NCBI GenBank assembly: GCA_015295905.1 | Contig: DVEB01000188.1 | Span: 1 to 39,746 of the forward strand | Origin: Synechococcales cyanobacterium M55_K2018_004 | Lineage (GTDB): Bacteria > Cyanobacteriota > Cyanobacteriia > Elainellales > Elainellaceae | Length of the DNA stretch: 39,746 nucleotides | Reading direction: 5' to 3' | In this document: positions 1-39,695 of the stretch, in pieces | How the letters are laid out: the number at the start of each line of letters is the position of its first letter | Numbering within the stretch: the stretch's first letter is position 1 | The notes under the pieces: model-generated | The model's input: the letters and a program-made list of their open reading frames with translations, nothing else | Told to the model about the DNA's origin: nothing | The model's database searches: none | Position numbers and translations under genes: made by a program

Positions 1-53
1 GTGCGCGACGCGCACGGAACAGCAAGGGTTTCAGCTTATCCCGAATTCACGTT
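1..53. repeat. Family I MITE-like repeat, right half
   Basis: A 15-bp perfect palindrome at 1-15 (GTGCGCG, A, CGCGCAC) is followed by AAGGGTTTCAG and the terminal sequence CTTATCCCGAATTCACGTT at 35-53. The same arrangement ends the copy at 22718-22833. The left half lies outside the window. The stop codon of the neighbouring lipoprotein gene (52-54) falls on the repeat terminus. Confidence 0.7.
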
Positions 54-3976: not shown

Positions 3977-4053
3977 GGGAAATGCTGACGAGTCCCCAAT
4001 CCCAGCTTAGCAGTACATTAGAACTTTAATACAGATGCTCTGTCAAATTTCGG

Positions 4054-4094
4054 CAATTCTCAGTATAAAAACTAGAAGTCTACAATGAGAATTG
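4054..4094. repeat. Family II inverted repeat (CAATTCTCA)
   Basis: Arms CAATTCTCA at 4054-4062 and TGAGAATTG at 4086-4094 form a 9-bp inverted repeat around an AT-rich centre that begins GTATAAAAACTAGAAG. The same arms recur at 36610-36652 and related ends occur at 15849 and 20592-20850, so this is a small dispersed family. Confidence 0.7.
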
Positions 4095-4246: not shown

Positions 4247-4329
4247 AACGTGAATTTCGGAAAAGCAGGGGTTCTGAGGTGCTGCACACGGCGCAGTGCC
4301 CCAAAATCTGCTTAACCAAAACTGACGTT
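4247..4329. repeat. Family I MITE-like repeat, one-hairpin copy
   Basis: The left end AACGTGAATTTCGG and the right end, read on the minus strand as AACGTCAGTTTTGG, form imperfect terminal inverted repeats of about 22 bp. Between them is one GC-rich hairpin (GGTGCTGCAC...GCAGTGCC). It lies 29 bases before the ssb ATG, so it would sit in the promoter or leader of that gene. The rest of the 3977-4358 gap, apart from the family II repeat, shows nothing I can assign. Confidence 0.7.
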
Positions 4330-8407: not shown

Positions 8408-8493
8408 GCATTGCTTAATCCGAGTACGATTGCTTGAGTGAGCAGCGTACTTCATGCGCCGCTCACTCAAACAATCACGAATTAAATCCGCCA
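8408..8493. repeat. Family III palindromic repeat (GAGTGAG hairpin)
   Basis: The 16-bp arms 8428-8443 and 8461-8476 pair with one G:U position. The flanking GCATTGCTTAATCC at 8408 matches the end of the larger palindrome at 38241-38331, which reads GCGTTGCTTAATCC on the minus strand. The element lies between the tsf stop and the start of the 335-residue gene and may act as a terminator for neither, since both genes run leftward. Confidence 0.65.
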
Positions 8494-14914: not shown

Positions 14915-14966
14915 AACCCGAATTCCGAATAATACCGACGGAGTCGGTATAACCAGAACTGATGTT
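14915..14966. repeat. Family I MITE-like repeat, short derivative
   Basis: On the minus strand the right end reads AACATCAGTTCTGGTTATAC, close to the family end AACGTCAGTTCTAGTTAAG. The centre is a small hairpin, ATACCGAC/GTCGGTAT. The left end AACCCGAATTCCGAATAA is degenerate. At 52 bp it would be an internally deleted copy, placed directly after a stop codon (14910). Confidence 0.5.
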
Positions 14967-16817: not shown

Positions 16818-16940
16818 AACGTCAGTTCTAGTTAAGCAGGGTTTGGGGCACCCCGCATGGCGCGATGACCCAAACCCCTCAATGGTCCGTGCACAATGCT
16901 CACGAAACATCAAGAGTTCCAACTTGTCCCGAATTTACGT
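16818..16940. repeat. Family I MITE-like repeat, two-hairpin copy
   Basis: The left end AACGTCAGTTCTAGTTAAG and the right end, read on the minus strand as ACGTAAATTCGGGACAAG, are terminal inverted repeats. Inside are two stems, GGTTTGGG...CCCAAACC and a second one around GTCCGTGCACAATGCTCACG. It fills most of the 300-bp gap between the queA stop and the DUF1350 start, where the DUF1350 promoter would be expected. Confidence 0.75.
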
Positions 16941-17056
16941 GATGACGGTTTTCATCTAGCTGCTTGCAGTAGTGCGGTCGGTGACCACACCACTCAACCC
17001 CTTAACCAACTGGATCGTGTGCTACAAGAGACAGCTTCGCAGCGTATATTGACCTC

Positions 17057-18221: not shown

Positions 18222-18388
18222 GCGACTGTCGAAGGCACGAAATGGCGGTGAATGAGTTCAGATGTGAAAGCAAGTATACGGAATTCTCAAACAATTCTGC
18301 CAGAGAAAAAATGAACGTTGCTTTTCAGTAGCATCGTCACCCCCAGAGACCCTGGAACTCCAAGCTCACGTCCTGTCTATTTGAGATC

Positions 18389-18511
18389 ACGTTAATTCGG
18401 GATATGCTGAAACCCTCAATGGTCTGTACGCGGCGCACACGAACCATCGAGAGTTTTGGGACACGGTGCAGCGTGCGGTGCCTCAACACCCACGTCAGCC
18501 GAACTGACGTT
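18389..18511. repeat. Family I MITE-like repeat, inverted copy
   Basis: Read on the minus strand it starts AACGTCAGTTCGGC and ends CATATCCCGAATTAACGT. The inner half aligns well with the copy at 16818-16940, sharing CTC.ATGGT.CGTG spacing. Two internal hairpins are visible. It lies upstream of queA in the gap shared with the 18707 gene. Confidence 0.75.
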
Positions 18512-20951: not shown

Positions 20952-21018
20952 GCATCGTTGATTTAATCCATGATTTTTGAGTGAGGGGTGTATCCCGTGC
21001 ACCTCTGACTCAACCAAG
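20952..21018. repeat. Family III palindromic repeat, decayed copy
   Basis: GTTGATTTAATCCATGATTTT, then TGAGTGAGGGGTG, matches the left arm of the palindrome at 38241-38331. The right arm (CACCTCTGACTCAAC) is partly eroded. It lies about 100 bases before the phoH start codon. Confidence 0.6.
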
Positions 21019-21119
21019 CCGATTTGGATTGGGCGCCGGATTCAACGGATTCAACAATGCCTCCCTCTTAACCATTCGCTAGTCTGGTTCCTGTAGAGAG
21101 ACTTTCCCTATACGCCACG

Positions 21120-22442
21120 ATGAAACAAGTCTACGTCCTCGATACCAATGTGCTGTTGCACGATCCATCAGCGATGATGCGGTTTGGGGACAATGATGTT
21201 ATCTTGCCGATCACGATTATTGAAGAACTCGATCGGTTTAAGAAACAACCCGAAATGACGGGGCGAAATGCACGCCAGGCATCACGGACACTCGACACCC
21301 TGCGGCAGCGGGGGCACTTGATCCAGGGGATTAAGATTAATGGAGGGGGCTTTCTGCGGGTGGCTCTGTGCGATCGCCACACTTTAGCAGAACTGCCAGC
21401 AGAACTAGAGGGCGACAAGGGCGACAACGAAATTCTCGCCGTCGCCATGGAGTTGCGCGAGAAGTGTCAGTGCCCCGTGGTGCTGGTCAGCAAAGACACC
21501 AACCTGAGAATTAAAGCCGATGCCCTAGGGCTAGAAGCGCAGGACTATGAAATTGACAAGGTTGCGATCAAAGACCTGTACACGGGGAGCGCGGAAGTCT
21601 TCGTCAACCCGGCTGTGATTGACCTAATGTTCAAGCAGGGAGGCATATCGCTTGAGCAGGAGACGCACCCCAATCAGTTACTCACCCTAGTGAATGAATC
21701 CAACCCTGACCACACTGCCCTAGCCATCGTAGAGGGCACAACAGGAAAGGTTATCCCACTCAACAAACTGCCCCACTCTGGGGTCTCCCACATTCAACCC
21801 CGCAACCGAGAGCAGAAGTTTGCGCTGGAACTGTTGCTGCGAGACAGTATTCCGTTGGTAACGCTGGTGGGGAAAGCAGGGACAGGAAAGACTTTGCTGG
21901 CGATCGCCACAGGCCTCCAAAAAGTTGTTGAAGAGGGAACTTATAGCCGTCTACTGATCTCGCGTCCGGTTATCCCAATGGGGCGAGATATTGGGTACCT
22001 CCCTGGTGACATTAGTGAAAAGCTTACCCCCTGGATGCAACCGCTCTATGATAACTTTGACCTGATCTTCAGTAGCGAGACCCTGGGGAAACGAGGCCGC
22101 TGGCACCAAGGCTACGAAGACTTGATGCAGCAAGGGCTTTTGCAGATTGAAGCACTCACCTACATCCGCGGTCGCACCCTACCCCAACAATTCCTGATCG
22201 TGGATGAAGCCCAAAACCTCACTCCCCACGAGGTGAAAACCATCCTGACGCGGGCAGGCGAAGGCACAAAAATTATTCTGGCGGGTGATGTAGACCAGAT
22301 TGATAACCCCTACGTGGATGCCGAGAGCAATGGCCTGACCTACGTGGTCGAACGGTTTAAGGACGACCCCCTAGCCGGACACATCACGCTCACAAAGGGC
22401 GAGCGATCGAAATTGGCAGAACGGGCCACTGCGCTGCTCTAG
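21120..22442 (+). CDS. PIN-PhoH family ATPase
   Basis: A 440-residue protein joining an N-terminal PIN-type nuclease domain to a C-terminal PhoH ATPase, as in PhoH2 proteins studied in mycobacteria as RNA-unwinding ribonucleases. The PIN part has YVLDTNVLLHDPSAM, ITIIEELDRFK and DNEILAVAMELRE, which keeps the acidic residues expected for metal binding, and VVLVSKDTNLRIKADALG. The PhoH part has Walker A LVGKAGTGKTLLAIA (about 250), ISRPVIPMGRDIGYLPGD, Walker B FLIVDEAQNL and ILAGDVDQIDNPY. Length and motifs are complete. It stands alone, without an antitoxin-like partner gene directly upstream. ATG at 21120 is the first residue of the conserved start. Confidence 0.93.
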   Translation: MKQVYVLDTNVLLHDPSAMMRFGDNDVILPITIIEELDRFKKQPEMTGRNARQASRTLDTLRQRGHLIQGIKINGGGFLRVALCDRHTLAELPAELEGDKGDNEILAVAMELREKCQCPVVLVSKDTNLRIKADALGLEAQDYEIDKVAIKDLYTGSAEVFVNPAVIDLMFKQGGISLEQETHPNQLLTLVNESNPDHTALAIVEGTTGKVIPLNKLPHSGVSHIQPRNREQKFALELLLRDSIPLVTLVGKAGTGKTLLAIATGLQKVVEEGTYSRLLISRPVIPMGRDIGYLPGDISEKLTPWMQPLYDNFDLIFSSETLGKRGRWHQGYEDLMQQGLLQIEALTYIRGRTLPQQFLIVDEAQNLTPHEVKTILTRAGEGTKIILAGDVDQIDNPYVDAESNGLTYVVERFKDDPLAGHITLTKGERSKLAERATALL

Positions 22443-22663: not shown

Positions 22664-22713
22664 GTTTGCAGCTAGTCAGCTAGGGTTTGTTTGCAGCTAG
22701 TCAGCTAGGGTTT
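22664..22713. repeat. Perfect 25-bp tandem duplication
   Basis: GTTTGCAGCTAGTCAGCTAG plus GGTTT occurs twice without mismatch (22664-22688 and 22689-22713). It lies in the likely leader of the 42-residue peptide, between that gene and a family I repeat. Confidence 0.9.
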
Positions 22714-22717
22714 GAAT

Positions 22718-22833
22718 AACGTCAATTCAGGTTAAGAGGCTTGGGGGGCACTGTGCGGTGCTCCCAAAGGTTTGCTTTTCCGTGCGCGACGGGCACGAAA
22801 AACCAAGGGTTTCAGCTTATCCTGAATTCACGT
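22718..22833. repeat. Family I MITE-like repeat, best two-ended copy
   Basis: The left end AACGTCAATTCAGGTTAAG and the right end CTTATCCTGAATTCACGTT (minus strand AACGTGAATTCAGGATAAG) match at 16 of 19 positions as terminal inverted repeats. Two hairpins lie inside: TTGGGGGGCAC...GTGCTCCCAA and TTTCCGTGC...GCACGAAA. The element is bracketed by TA on both sides, as expected for a TA-targeting transposon derivative. Confidence 0.8.
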
Positions 22834-22860
22834 TACATTAGTCTTGTCTAGAAATTAAGT

Positions 22861-24525: not shown

Positions 24526-24606
24526 ATCCTATGGCGCCACGCGCTCATCGTGTAAAACGCTTTTTGTGAGAAACCCCGCTACGCGGGGTTTCTCACAAAA
24601 AGCGTT
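24526..24606. repeat. Family V repeat with 24-bp perfect hairpin
   Basis: Arms 24556-24579 and 24583-24606 pair perfectly over 24 bp with a 3-base loop. The preceding ATGGCGCCACGCGCTCAT is also found, inverted, beside the hairpin at 29221-29303. The site lies between the convergent cytochrome and lipase genes and could serve as a two-way terminator. A smaller GGGATGAG/CTCATCC stem precedes it at 24497-24529. Confidence 0.8.
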
Positions 24607-25252: not shown

Positions 25253-25574
25253 ACGGTAGAGTGAAATGGATGGAAGGGAAGCGATGATCTTTGGCATCAA
25301 GCACACGATCATCAGTGAGCCTCTGCAATATCAGCGTTTGCCACGTTACTGAAAACCAGCAGCTTGGAGGCGTTGGCTCTGCTGTCCCACGATTGGGTAT
25401 TCTCGTTGCCTAAGAAACGCAACTGACGAGAAGCGCTACTGAAAGATTGTGCTTCTCAGCTAAAGGCAGCATTTTGAGAAGCATTATATTTTTGAGCTGT
25501 TATATGTTCTAGCTTAATCTAGCGTAATAGCTGCGATCGCATCCTGTATGGCCTGTGTAGACAGCTTGGCAAAT

Positions 25575-25622
25575 GTCCTCCCCAGCGGCTTGCAGGTTGT
25601 CCTCCCCCGCGGCTTGCAGGTT
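25575..25622. repeat. 24-bp tandem duplication, one mismatch
   Basis: GTCCTCCCC, A or C, GCGGCTTGCAGGTT occurs twice in a row (25575-25598 and 25599-25622) with a single difference. The site lies in the 592-bp divergent gap between the lipase and the debranching enzyme. The remainder of 25253-25574 shows no gene or RNA that I can support. Confidence 0.8.
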
Positions 25623-25844: not shown

Positions 25845-27917
25845 ATGGAAACACCCGATACTCGTGAATGGCTATTGACAAATGGCTTAGGTAGTTTCGC
25901 CAGTGGTACGGTTTGTGATGCCCACACCCGCACCTACCACGGCTGGCTTGTGGCGGCGATGAACCCACCAGGGCGACGGACCCTCCTCCTCTCACGGGTC
26001 GATGCTTATTTGTGGATTGGTAGCACTGGATTCGAGTTGAGTACAAATTTTTGGGGGAGCGGGGCGATCGCACCGCAGGGGTATCAACGGCTGCAATCGT
26101 TTCAGATCAGTCCAGTGCCCACCTGGATTTGGGGGACTGACGACTGGCAATTTACCCGCGAAATTCTCCTACCCTACGGCCTGATTCCCGATGAAACCAC
26201 AGAACAACCAAGGTTTCGCCATCAGGTGTTGGTGCGCTATCGCTATACGGGCCAAGAAGAAGCACTGCTGACGTTACGACCGCTGATTGGCGATCGCAAC
26301 TTTCACCACCAGCAAACTGCCGACTCCGATCTTCATTTCTCTCAAGTCGTTGAAGATCAACGAGTTTTGTTCCAGGCAACTCGTGCCGATTGGCTGGGGG
26401 TTCCCTGGCAACTGAGCTGGAGTGCAGGGACTTACTGTGTGCAGGGAGTCTGGTATCGAGACTACCGCTTCCCAGAGGAGACCCAGCGGGGACTGGGCGA
26501 TCGCGAGGATCTTTACAGCCCTGGTTATTTGAACATAGCCCTGCAACCTGGTCAGAGCGTGACCCTAGAGGCGAGGGTGCGGGGTCTGAGCAAAAACTGC
26601 CCGTTCGTTCCTCCGGATGAAGAGAGTTTTGCGATCGCCCTCAATAGTGAACAACACCGCCGCATGCAGGTGTTTTCGGGCATGGCAGGGAAATCGACCT
26701 GGAGCGATCGCAAGTCTCTGCCTCCCCGCCCTGCCATGCCGCCGGCCACACTGCTGCAAGCCAGCGATCAGTTTGTTGCCTACCGGGCATCAATTGCGGG
26801 GCCAACCGTGATCGCAGGCTACCCCTGGTTTGGTGACTGGGGACGGGATACACTGATCGCGCTGCCTGGACTGGCCCTTTCAACAGGCCGCTATGCCCTG
26901 GCGCGAGGGTTACTGGAGACCTTTGGGCGCTACTGCCAAGACGGACTGATCCCCAACACCTTCCCAGACAGTGGGGAAAGTCCACTCTACAACAGCCTGG
27001 ATGCAGTCTTGTGGTGGGTTGAGACGCTGGGGCTATACCTGGAGGCAACCCAAGACTGGGCCTTTCTAGTAGAGCAATACCCCACAGTCCGCAGCATTTA
27101 CAAAGCATTTGTTACGGGAACGCACTTCAATATTCGGATTGATGCGCGGGATGGCTTGGTGACGTGGGAAGCGCCAGGATACGCCCTCACCTGGATGGAT
27201 GCGCTAGTGAACGGACAACCCATTACCCCCCGGCAGGGCAAACCGGTAGAGATTAATGCCTTGTGGTACTCAGCGTTGTGCTGGGCGCAGCAGTGGGCAG
27301 AACGCCTGAAGCACAGCCATGAGCCGGGGAATGGGTCGAGCAATTACGAAAACCATGCCCGCCGCTACGCACAACAGGCCAAACAGGTGAAGGCAGCGCT
27401 GCAAAAATTCTGGAATCCCCAAAAACAGTTTTTTTACGACACGATCAGTCCTAACGATACACCCAACGACTCAGTCCGTCCCAATGCAGTCATTGCCCTA
27501 TCTCTGGCGCACTGTGGGTTCTCTCCTGAGCAAGCACGGCAAGTCGTACAGACAACCCGCGATCGCCTCCTCACCCCCTACGGCCTGCGTTCCCTCGATC
27601 CGGACGACCCGCAATACATCGGAGTTTATGAAGGCAATCCGGCCCAGCGCGATCGCGCCTACCACCAAGGCACGGTGTGGAGCTGGCTGATTGGCCCCTT
27701 TATCCGTGCCTGGAAGCGCTTTTATCCCAACGATCCCCTACCCTGGAACCCTACCCCGATGCTGGAACACCTGGAACAGCAAGCCTGCCTGGGATCTATT
27801 TCAGAAATCTTTGATGGCAATGCACCGCACCAAGCCCGGGGGGCGATCGCCCAGGCATGGTCTGTCGCAGAACTGCTGCGGCACTGGCAGGAGATTGCTC
27901 CCTACTGTGAGCCGTGA
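25845..27917 (+). CDS. Glycogen debranching enzyme (amylo-1,6-glucosidase type)
   Basis: A 690-residue cytoplasmic enzyme of the amylo-alpha-1,6-glucosidase family, which removes branch-point glucose during glycogen use. The N-terminal part (GDE_N-like) opens REWLLTNGLGSFASGTVCDAHTRTYHGWLVAA. The C-terminal catalytic (alpha/alpha)6 barrel has FGDWGRDTLIALPGLALSTGRY, GLIPNTFPDSG, NSLDAVLWWVETL and HQGTVWSWLIGPFIRAW, with acidic residues in the usual places (GDWGRD and YNSLDA). Length is normal. The ATG at 25845 is chosen over TTG 25824 because MHDRPCC upstream is not conserved-looking. No other glycogen gene is adjacent. A partial family I repeat begins right after the stop. Confidence 0.93.
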   Translation: METPDTREWLLTNGLGSFASGTVCDAHTRTYHGWLVAAMNPPGRRTLLLSRVDAYLWIGSTGFELSTNFWGSGAIAPQGYQRLQSFQISPVPTWIWGTDDWQFTREILLPYGLIPDETTEQPRFRHQVLVRYRYTGQEEALLTLRPLIGDRNFHHQQTADSDLHFSQVVEDQRVLFQATRADWLGVPWQLSWSAGTYCVQGVWYRDYRFPEETQRGLGDREDLYSPGYLNIALQPGQSVTLEARVRGLSKNCPFVPPDEESFAIALNSEQHRRMQVFSGMAGKSTWSDRKSLPPRPAMPPATLLQASDQFVAYRASIAGPTVIAGYPWFGDWGRDTLIALPGLALSTGRYALARGLLETFGRYCQDGLIPNTFPDSGESPLYNSLDAVLWWVETLGLYLEATQDWAFLVEQYPTVRSIYKAFVTGTHFNIRIDARDGLVTWEAPGYALTWMDALVNGQPITPRQGKPVEINALWYSALCWAQQWAERLKHSHEPGNGSSNYENHARRYAQQAKQVKAALQKFWNPQKQFFYDTISPNDTPNDSVRPNAVIALSLAHCGFSPEQARQVVQTTRDRLLTPYGLRSLDPDDPQYIGVYEGNPAQRDRAYHQGTVWSWLIGPFIRAWKRFYPNDPLPWNPTPMLEHLEQQACLGSISEIFDGNAPHQARGAIAQAWSVAELLRHWQEIAPYCEP

Positions 27918-27918
27918 G

Positions 27919-28029
27919 ACCAAGGGCTGGGGCTGCCCCCTTACGGTGCGCGGCACCCCCAACCTCGCGTTTTTCCATGCATAGCGTGCATGGAAAATTG
28001 AGGGATTTAGTTTATTTCAAATTCACGTT
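27919..28029. repeat. Family I MITE-like repeat lacking clear left end
   Basis: The right end TTATTTCAAATTCACGTT and two hairpins (GGGGCTGCCCC...GGCACCCCC and TTTTTCCATGCA...TGCATGGAAAA) match the family layout. The left end would fall at the debranching gene stop (27915-27917), suggesting the insertion or later loss trimmed it. The rest of the 27918-28374 gap holds the upstream region of the PEP-CTERM gene, with no gene that I can see. Confidence 0.65.
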
Positions 28030-29083: not shown

Positions 29084-29175
29084 AACGTCAGTTCAGGTTA
29101 AGAGAGTTTTGGGGCTCCGCACTAGGCGCGGAGCCTCAAAACTTCAAGGGCCTCCGCTTATCTTGAATTTGCGTT
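29084..29175. repeat. Family I MITE-like repeat, one-hairpin copy
   Basis: The left end AACGTCAGTTCAGGTTAAG and the right end CTTATCTTGAATTTGCGTT are clear terminal inverted repeats. The single internal hairpin is GTTTTGGGGCTCCGC...GCGGAGCCTCAAAAC. It starts 23 bases after the PEP-CTERM stop and may stop its transcript. Confidence 0.8.
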
Positions 29176-29220: not shown

Positions 29221-29303
29221 GCGTTTTGTGGGAAACTCCGCTGCGCGGGGGTTCCCACAAAACGCTTGTTACATCATGAGCGCGTAGCGCCATCGTGATG
29301 GCG
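29221..29303. repeat. Family V hairpin repeat, inverted copy
   Basis: The hairpin GCGTTTTGTGGGAAAC...GTTCCCACAAAACGC has a few mismatches. The following ATGAGCGCGTAGCGCCAT is the inverse complement of the flank beside the hairpin at 24526. A fragment GCGCGTAGCGCCAT is also present at 34690. The rest of 29304-29821 has only short open frames and a G8 run at 29532; I cannot support a gene there. Confidence 0.7.
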
Positions 29304-31381: not shown

Positions 31382-31429
31382 ATCAGCATTCATCTCACTG
31401 CACCAATCAGCATTCATCTCACTGCACCG
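31382..31429. repeat. 24-bp tandem duplication upstream of the pump gene
   Basis: ATCAGCATTCATCTCACTGC plus ACCA occurs twice (31382-31405 and 31406-31429), differing at the last base. It lies in the leader just 30 bases before the pump ATG. The rest of the 31082-31458 gap holds the nested inverted repeat and a fragment GGGGATGAGGAG like the repeat at 540. Confidence 0.85.
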
Positions 31430-36393: not shown

Positions 36394-36609
36394 GGTTTCT
36401 CTTCCAACGTCAACGGCCCCAACTCAACGTGCATCCTGAATCAATCTCAAGTGCCACCCAGACCCTGGGAAAAACTGTGCAGCGCACTTTTTCCCAAGAT
36501 CTGGCATAGAGTAGGCGCATCGCTCGCACCCCCTACATCGGGTTGTCGATAGTCTGCATCCTTCATACTGCATTGCCGCACATTTCACAATGTAACCCTG
36601 TCACCATCA

Positions 36610-36652
36610 GCAATTCTCAGGATGAAACGTAGAAATCCCAAATGAGAATTGC
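36610..36652. repeat. Family II inverted repeat (GCAATTCTCA)
   Basis: Arms GCAATTCTCA (36610-36619) and TGAGAATTGC (36643-36652) form a perfect 10-bp inverted repeat. It is followed at 36678-36715 by a second stem, TTTCCGTGGCGGTG...CACCCCGCCACGGAAA, with one mismatch. They lie in the 428-bp gap between the DUF3352 start and the HEAT protein stop; the remaining part has no gene I can support. Confidence 0.75.
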
Positions 36653-36821
36653 AGGGTCACCATCGGCCAAACTGAACTTTCCGTGGCGGTGTGCGACGCA
36701 CCCCGCCACGGAAAACCCTATCAGAACCTTGAGAAGGAAATCCACCGAAAAAAGTGCCTGACCAATGGGGTCAATCTGCAACTAATCCGAATCAACGCAG
36801 GCCGGCACGTCATCGCAGGTG

Positions 36822-38240: not shown

Positions 38241-38331
38241 GGCGTTGCTGTTTTAACCAATGATTTTTTGAGTGAGGGGCGCACGGAGCGCACCCCTCAC
38301 TCAAAAAATCACGTTGGGATTAAGCAACGCC
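38241..38331. repeat. Family III nested palindrome, best copy
   Basis: The outer arms are GGCGTTGCT (38241) and AGCAACGCC (38323). The inner 18-bp arms GATTTTTTGAGTGAGGGG (38262-38279) and its complement (38293-38310) pair perfectly. Related copies are at 8408-8493 and 20952-21018. It fills part of the 388-bp gap between the CBS gene start and the VIT1-type gene start, both reading away from it. Confidence 0.8.
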
Positions 38332-39656: not shown

Positions 39657-39695
39657 TTTTGTGGGAGCTCCCACTCAGCAGAGGTTCCCACAAAA
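39657..39695. terminator. Imperfect hairpin after VIT1-type gene
   Basis: TTTTGTGGGA (39657) pairs with TCCCACAAAA (39686), the same stem ends as at 4744 and 29221. It lies 66 bases past the stop at 39590 and may terminate that transcript. The rest of the window end is non-coding as far as I can see. Confidence 0.5.

Follow-up and report, generated by a model that had tools for sequence, protein, structure and literature searches.

A high-copy hairpin repeat with IS982-type ends in a cyanobacterial genome

Nezha and other miniature inverted-repeat transposable elements (MITEs) of cyanobacteria, named in PMC3733652 and PMC10969869, are short and gene-less, have terminal inverted repeats and lie near coding sequences. 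ERIC, RUP and NEMIS/Correia MITEs are structured, intergenic, high-copy elements of ~100-130 bp, and a 2024 review quotes 711 ERIC copies in Photorhabdus (PMC10969869). REP/REPIN elements with their RAYT transposases are likewise dispersed intergenic hairpins. A separate body of work concerns template switching between the arms of inverted repeats, whose signature in yeast is arm homogenisation together with spacer inversion (PMC8604942); a second source treats template-switch mutations also for RNA hairpins (PMC8794818). The literature that we searched contained no IS982 MITE from cyanobacteria.

Here we describe a repeat from a 39,746-nt stretch of Synechococcales cyanobacterium M55_K2018_004 (the window, meaning the whole stretch analysed) that has features of all these systems. 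With IS982 elements (NF033520/PF13612) it has in common 19-bp ends, a left/right asymmetry and 4-5 bp duplications of the form A...T, but it contains neither a gene nor IS982 inner sequence and carries two hairpins instead. Compared with ERIC, RUP and NEMIS/Correia, it is present in ~1,000 copies (an extrapolated figure) and has two co-evolving hairpins with one common arm. Unlike REP/REPIN, it has target-site duplications and DDE-type ends, and no Y1 transposase was found. Nezha and the other cyanobacterial MITEs presumably differ from it in ends and driver. Arm homogenisation and spacer inversion recur as in the yeast inverted repeats and the RNA hairpins (PMC8794818), but in many dispersed copies of a bacterial transposon, where we infer the mechanism.

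Copies in the window and across the genome

The preliminary description of the window listed eight copies of a hairpin-containing repeat, and we found both ends and the internal stems at the places given, to within 1 base (Table 1). Matches to the ends with at most 3 mismatches numbered 5 and 6 in the window, where 0.00-0.01 were expected by chance, and a profile made from other copies matched 7 of the 8. Single-copy folding z-scores were between -3 and -6.5 for most of them, the more decayed copies excepted. One copy had been described as beginning at 27919 without a left end; that end is indeed decayed, but the copy extends back to about 27904. When the flanks of the window copies were compared, none had kept an exact flanking duplication, and the copies are therefore probably old. 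A weak model match at 36653-36775 was rejected as a further copy, as it resembles an unrelated hairpin. No curated Rfam family was matched in the window at gathering thresholds.

Table 1. Copies of the repeat in the window
Positions	Strand	Form	Support
1-53	+	partial copy: right half of H2 and right end	end with 1 mismatch; model positions 72-124, E 3e-9
4247-4329	-	83-bp short form with both ends and H1, no H2	fold z -6.5; E 4e-12
14915-14966	-	52-bp remnant with degenerate ends and one simple hairpin	weakest member; absent from profile matches
16818-16941	+	full-length copy, H1 and H2	E 1.5e-21
18388-18511	-	full-length copy, H1 and H2	E 5.6e-24
22718-22834	+	117-bp copy, both ends well kept, H1 shortened	fold z -3.7; E 3e-22
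27904-28029	+	decayed copy, left end nearly lost	in profile matches, E 4.8e-7
29084-29175	+	92-bp copy: perfect left end, H1, shortened H2	fold z -5.9; E 2e-15

Alignment of full copies gave a 124-bp consensus with the order AACGTCAGTTCTGGTTAAG - H1 - H2 - CTTATCCCGAATTCACGTT, in which the 19-bp ends are the terminal inverted repeats. H1 consists of the arm AGGGTTTTGGGGCACCGCGC, a 3-nt loop and the complement of the arm; H2 is built in the same way from the arm AACCCTTGCTGTTCCGTGCGC, also with a 3-nt loop. The middle AACCCT is common to the two hairpins and pairs with the left AGGGTT in H1 or with the right AGGGTT in H2, so that the element contains three mutually complementary strands. Copies were 48-126 bp long, with a main class of 124 bp and no room for a transposase gene, and the shorter classes (83, 79 and 48 bp) were devoid of one or both hairpins.

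Further copies, for which a genome-wide search had been proposed, proved abundant, and the ends stayed conserved when these copies were aligned. Across the host genome (5.01 Mb in 362 contigs), the left end was matched 723 times with at most 3 mismatches, compared to 6 times for a backwards control. Scanning 827 kb of host sequence with a profile of 35 full copies gave 175 separate matches, amounting to 2.07% of bases, and none in the reversed sequence; extrapolation puts the host total at about 1,000-1,060 copies, or ~2% of the DNA. Contig ends lay inside the repeat in 19 of the 70 cases examined (2% expected), indicating that the repeat breaks up the host assembly, and the window itself begins within a copy. 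Presence in relatives was patchy: four genomes of the family had ~720 (the host), 365, 166 and 152 end matches, and the others had 0-10.

Other repeats were also seen in the window. Of two more hairpin repeats, the dispersed TTTTGTGRGAAACYCCGC...GCGGGGTTTCYCACAAAA occurs three times (24562-24600, 29224-29262 and 39657-39695), as does TTTTTGAGTGAGGGG...CCTCACTCAAAA, whose loops vary (8431-8487, 20974-21030 and 38265-38321). Two copies, 80% identical, were found of a 45-bp repeat with the ends CAATTCTCA...TGAGAATTG (4050-4094 and 36607-36651). A perfect 25-bp tandem duplication at 22664-22713 lies directly 5' of the best MITE copy (22718-22834), and there are 24-bp duplications at 25574-25621 and 31382-31429.

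Target site and the probable transposase

Exact flanking repeats of 4 bp were present at 11 of 55 host copies and of 5 bp at 4 of 55, where re-paired flanks gave 0.6 and 0.1 (15 of 55 in total versus ~0.7 expected); one further host copy had a 7-bp exact repeat. In Kaiparowitsia, 47 of 56 copies had repeats of 4-6 bp compared to ~2 expected from re-paired flanks (29 versus 1.4 at 4 bp, 16 versus 0.4 at 5 bp and 2 versus 0.03 at 6 bp). The target logo was T/A..T/A in both genomes (slashes mark the borders), the duplicated block starting with A, ending with T and lying between T and A. We conclude that the repeat inserts at T/ANN(N)T/A with a 4-5 bp duplication. Two copies were nested in older copies of the family, with duplications GGTT and CTCTT, and rejoining their flanks restored the sequence of the older copy across the junction, which reveals the empty site.

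The preliminary description had noted TA on both sides of the best copy and at several other ends, and had proposed movement by a TA-targeting transposase of the IS630/Tc1 type. The bases are literally there (T/AACG...CGTT/A), but they are not a TA duplication: given the T/A..T/A target, each apparent TA is made up of one target base and one element base. Besides the T and A that adjoin the element ends, a MITE of an IS630/Tc1-type element could draw on three IS630-type (DDE_3) matches in the host, one of which has an open frame. However, the repeat ends bracket none of these genes and, as set out below, belong to IS982 elements, and the duplicated blocks are 4-5 bp long and vary in sequence, which refutes this origin. 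Host PF01609 transposases were also considered as the driver and rejected, as they are not bracketed by repeat ends. A REP/REPIN-like element moved by a Y1/RAYT transposase would be short, hairpin-forming, intergenic and high-copy, and the left end contains CGTC, a REP tag (PMC3733652). No Y1_Tnp gene was found in the host, however, and neither duplicated target sites nor IS ends of the DDE type belong to REP, leaving this reading highly unlikely.

In relatives, paired repeat ends ~970 bp apart enclose a DDE transposase gene of the IS982 family (NF033520, E 1.5e-73, cut-off passed; PF13612, E 2e-73). Such elements with matching ends were found in the relatives G035, G021, G015, G026 and G048; G021 has an intact 292-aa transposase frame, and intact copies are flanked by the duplication AGCT in G021 and ATACT in G048. 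The intact elements of these two genomes are candidate drivers. In those intact IS whose ends are asymmetric, the end reads ...GGATAAG upstream of the gene and ...GGTTAAG downstream, and this asymmetry matches that of the MITE, the IS upstream end resembling the MITE right end and the IS downstream end the MITE left end. In Kaiparowitsia implicata (G015), where the IS982 copies are broken, the IS downstream end AACGTCAGTTCGGGTTAAG is identical to the left end of that genome's MITE (19/19), and the IS upstream end AACGTGAGTTCGGGATAAG agrees with its right end at 18 of 19 positions. MITE and IS982 element share only the 19-bp ends; their inner sequences differ.

The full-length transposase with the same ends that had been proposed as a check thus exists in relatives. 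The host assembly yielded no IS982 transposase to a protein query, the family model or a second protein query, and the gene was also not found in the high-copy genomes G003 and G009; the same search picks up small IS fragments in relatives. We weighed an assembly artefact as the reason: where IS982 copies are collapsed, as in G030 and G033, IS fragments lie at contig ends, whereas the host assembly shows none, although a wholly dropped contig may still hide an IS. Since there is no IS982 gene in the host assembly, we infer the driver from the relatives.

Taken together, these results make it very probable that the repeat is a high-copy MITE moved in trans by an IS982-family transposase, with a 4-5 bp duplication at T/ANN(N)T/A. 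The elements are non-coding, and the DDE transposase would recognise both 19-bp ends, act in trans and insert the element at its target, duplicating the 4-5 bp. To judge from the end sequences, the IS982 lineage in question would have driven the MITEs and would later have been lost from the host, leaving hundreds of orphan copies behind. The earlier characterisation of the repeat as MITE-like, mobile, hairpin-rich and located beside genes is borne out in every respect; its proposed IS630/Tc1 driver is not.

Gene context and hairpin evolution

With genes taken from greedy open frames rather than curated annotation, 124 of 144 host copies were intergenic, compared to 18% of random positions. Among intergenic copies with both neighbours known, 33% lay between convergent genes (15% expected for random intergenic positions) and 17% between divergent genes (32% expected). 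The convergent bias and the divergent deficit fit a purging of harmful insertions, and the preference for intergenic sites and convergent gene ends, together with decay after insertion, does not indicate a host function. For ORF 21120-22442, the region 3' of the orthologue was free of copies in two relatives and contained a different short copy in Kaiparowitsia, a comparison that is weak because gene order is not conserved.

Covariation in the stems, which the preliminary description had raised as a check on RNA folding, was strong. Pairs with double changes numbered 29 overall versus 15 in shuffles, and they comprised 26 of 35 pairs in H1 and H2 but 3 of 16 in the terminal inverted repeats. 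Conservation thus acts on the sequence of the ends and on the complementarity of the stems. In copies with low end divergence, 7-8% of stem sites were off consensus, yet 97-98% were paired; mispairs reached 20-23% in more diverged copies, while double changes per copy remained roughly level. H2 mispairing climbed from 0.02 to 0.23 with growing end divergence. It follows that compensation took place while lineages were active; once inserted, copies decay, and in the older ones this decay looks neutral. Because mispairing increases with age, we reject in-place correction of all copies as the main process.

Strong stem covariation and enrichment between convergent genes might also be expected if the hairpins were host-useful RNAs or terminators selected at each site. 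We consider this improbable, as older copies lose pairing through one-sided changes, covariation is strong already among very young, nearly identical copies, Rfam gave no match in the window, and purging of harmful insertions from promoters and genes also predicts the convergent bias. Covariation in these stems is no proof of RNA function.

In the unshared stem parts of a young Kaiparowitsia burst, a sample partly chosen by sequence, we counted 11 distinct complementary doubles, 0 non-complementary doubles and 3 distinct singles; a subset with H2 unselected gave the same result (30 double-sided cells, all complementary, and 3 single). One copy of the burst was altered on all three complementary strands together (positions 23/59/99). 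The same arms were found with the loop turned either way, as GAC/GTC in H1 of both Kaiparowitsia subfamilies, as GTC/GAC and ACC/GGT in Kaiparowitsia H2, and as CGG/CCG, GTC/GAC and GGC/GCC in the host, where loop counts overlapped those of their own reverse complements by 0.57-0.67, compared to 0-0.1 for reverse-only or complement-only controls. Near-identical copies thus show homogenised arms and inverted loops, the signature of template switching at quasipalindromes.

From these patterns we tentatively suggest, at somewhat short of an even chance, that the stems evolve in concert mainly by mutation, through template switching or through repair acting on a folded, single-stranded intermediate, coupled to the transposing phase. 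In active lineages the inner hairpins stay nearly perfect palindromes even though their sequence drifts; template switching between the arms, the most likely cause, would homogenise the arms and flip the loops. As an alternative to templated correction, selection acting on source copies as they transpose is a possible though doubtful way of keeping the hairpins perfect. Young copies are nearly perfectly paired and old ones are not, so a filter would operate in the active lineage, and the stems could be a requirement of the transposase or of a folded intermediate; among young copies, single changes in the stems were only marginally scarce (3/1410 H2 stem sites versus 8/1081 end or linker sites, p 0.07). 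Pairing selection does not, however, predict both loop orientations on the same arms; the joint alteration of three strands in one copy also speaks against it, and the 11 doubles against 3 singles in a near-identical burst would require two hits per short lineage. The existence of 48-83 bp copies without one or both hairpins also suggests that the stems are not strictly required at insertion, unless they were lost later. Alongside template switching, selection for folding during transposition may reinforce hairpin upkeep, a proposal that we hold with much lower confidence than the identity of the repeat as a MITE.

The two-hairpin plan is kept in three genera despite different sequences. A 116-bp copy in G003 has the same plan and the same three complementary strands with a different sequence, and in G009 another MITE, 165 bp long, agrees in its ends and 4-5 bp duplications but has an unrelated hairpin-rich interior and ~150 end matches genome-wide. 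Retention of the plan across genera goes beyond the needs of a plain MITE and is a point against a MITE-only account.

Significance

The mechanism, that of an IS982 MITE, is ordinary; the copy number is extraordinary, the driver has apparently been lost, and the palindrome record is unusually clear. A very abundant cyanobacterial repeat is now tied to a named transposase family, and the assumption of TA targeting is corrected. At about 1,000, the orphan copies in this genome, where no transposase was detected, outnumber the 711 of ERIC (PMC10969869). If the stems do evolve in concert by mutation, strong RNA-style covariation would arise without RNA function, and a two-hairpin, three-strand shape would outlast its own sequence across genera; covariation by itself, we caution, does not establish an RNA. 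With hundreds of dated copies that range from perfect to decaying palindromes, the shares of mutation and selection behind compensatory changes become measurable in bacteria.
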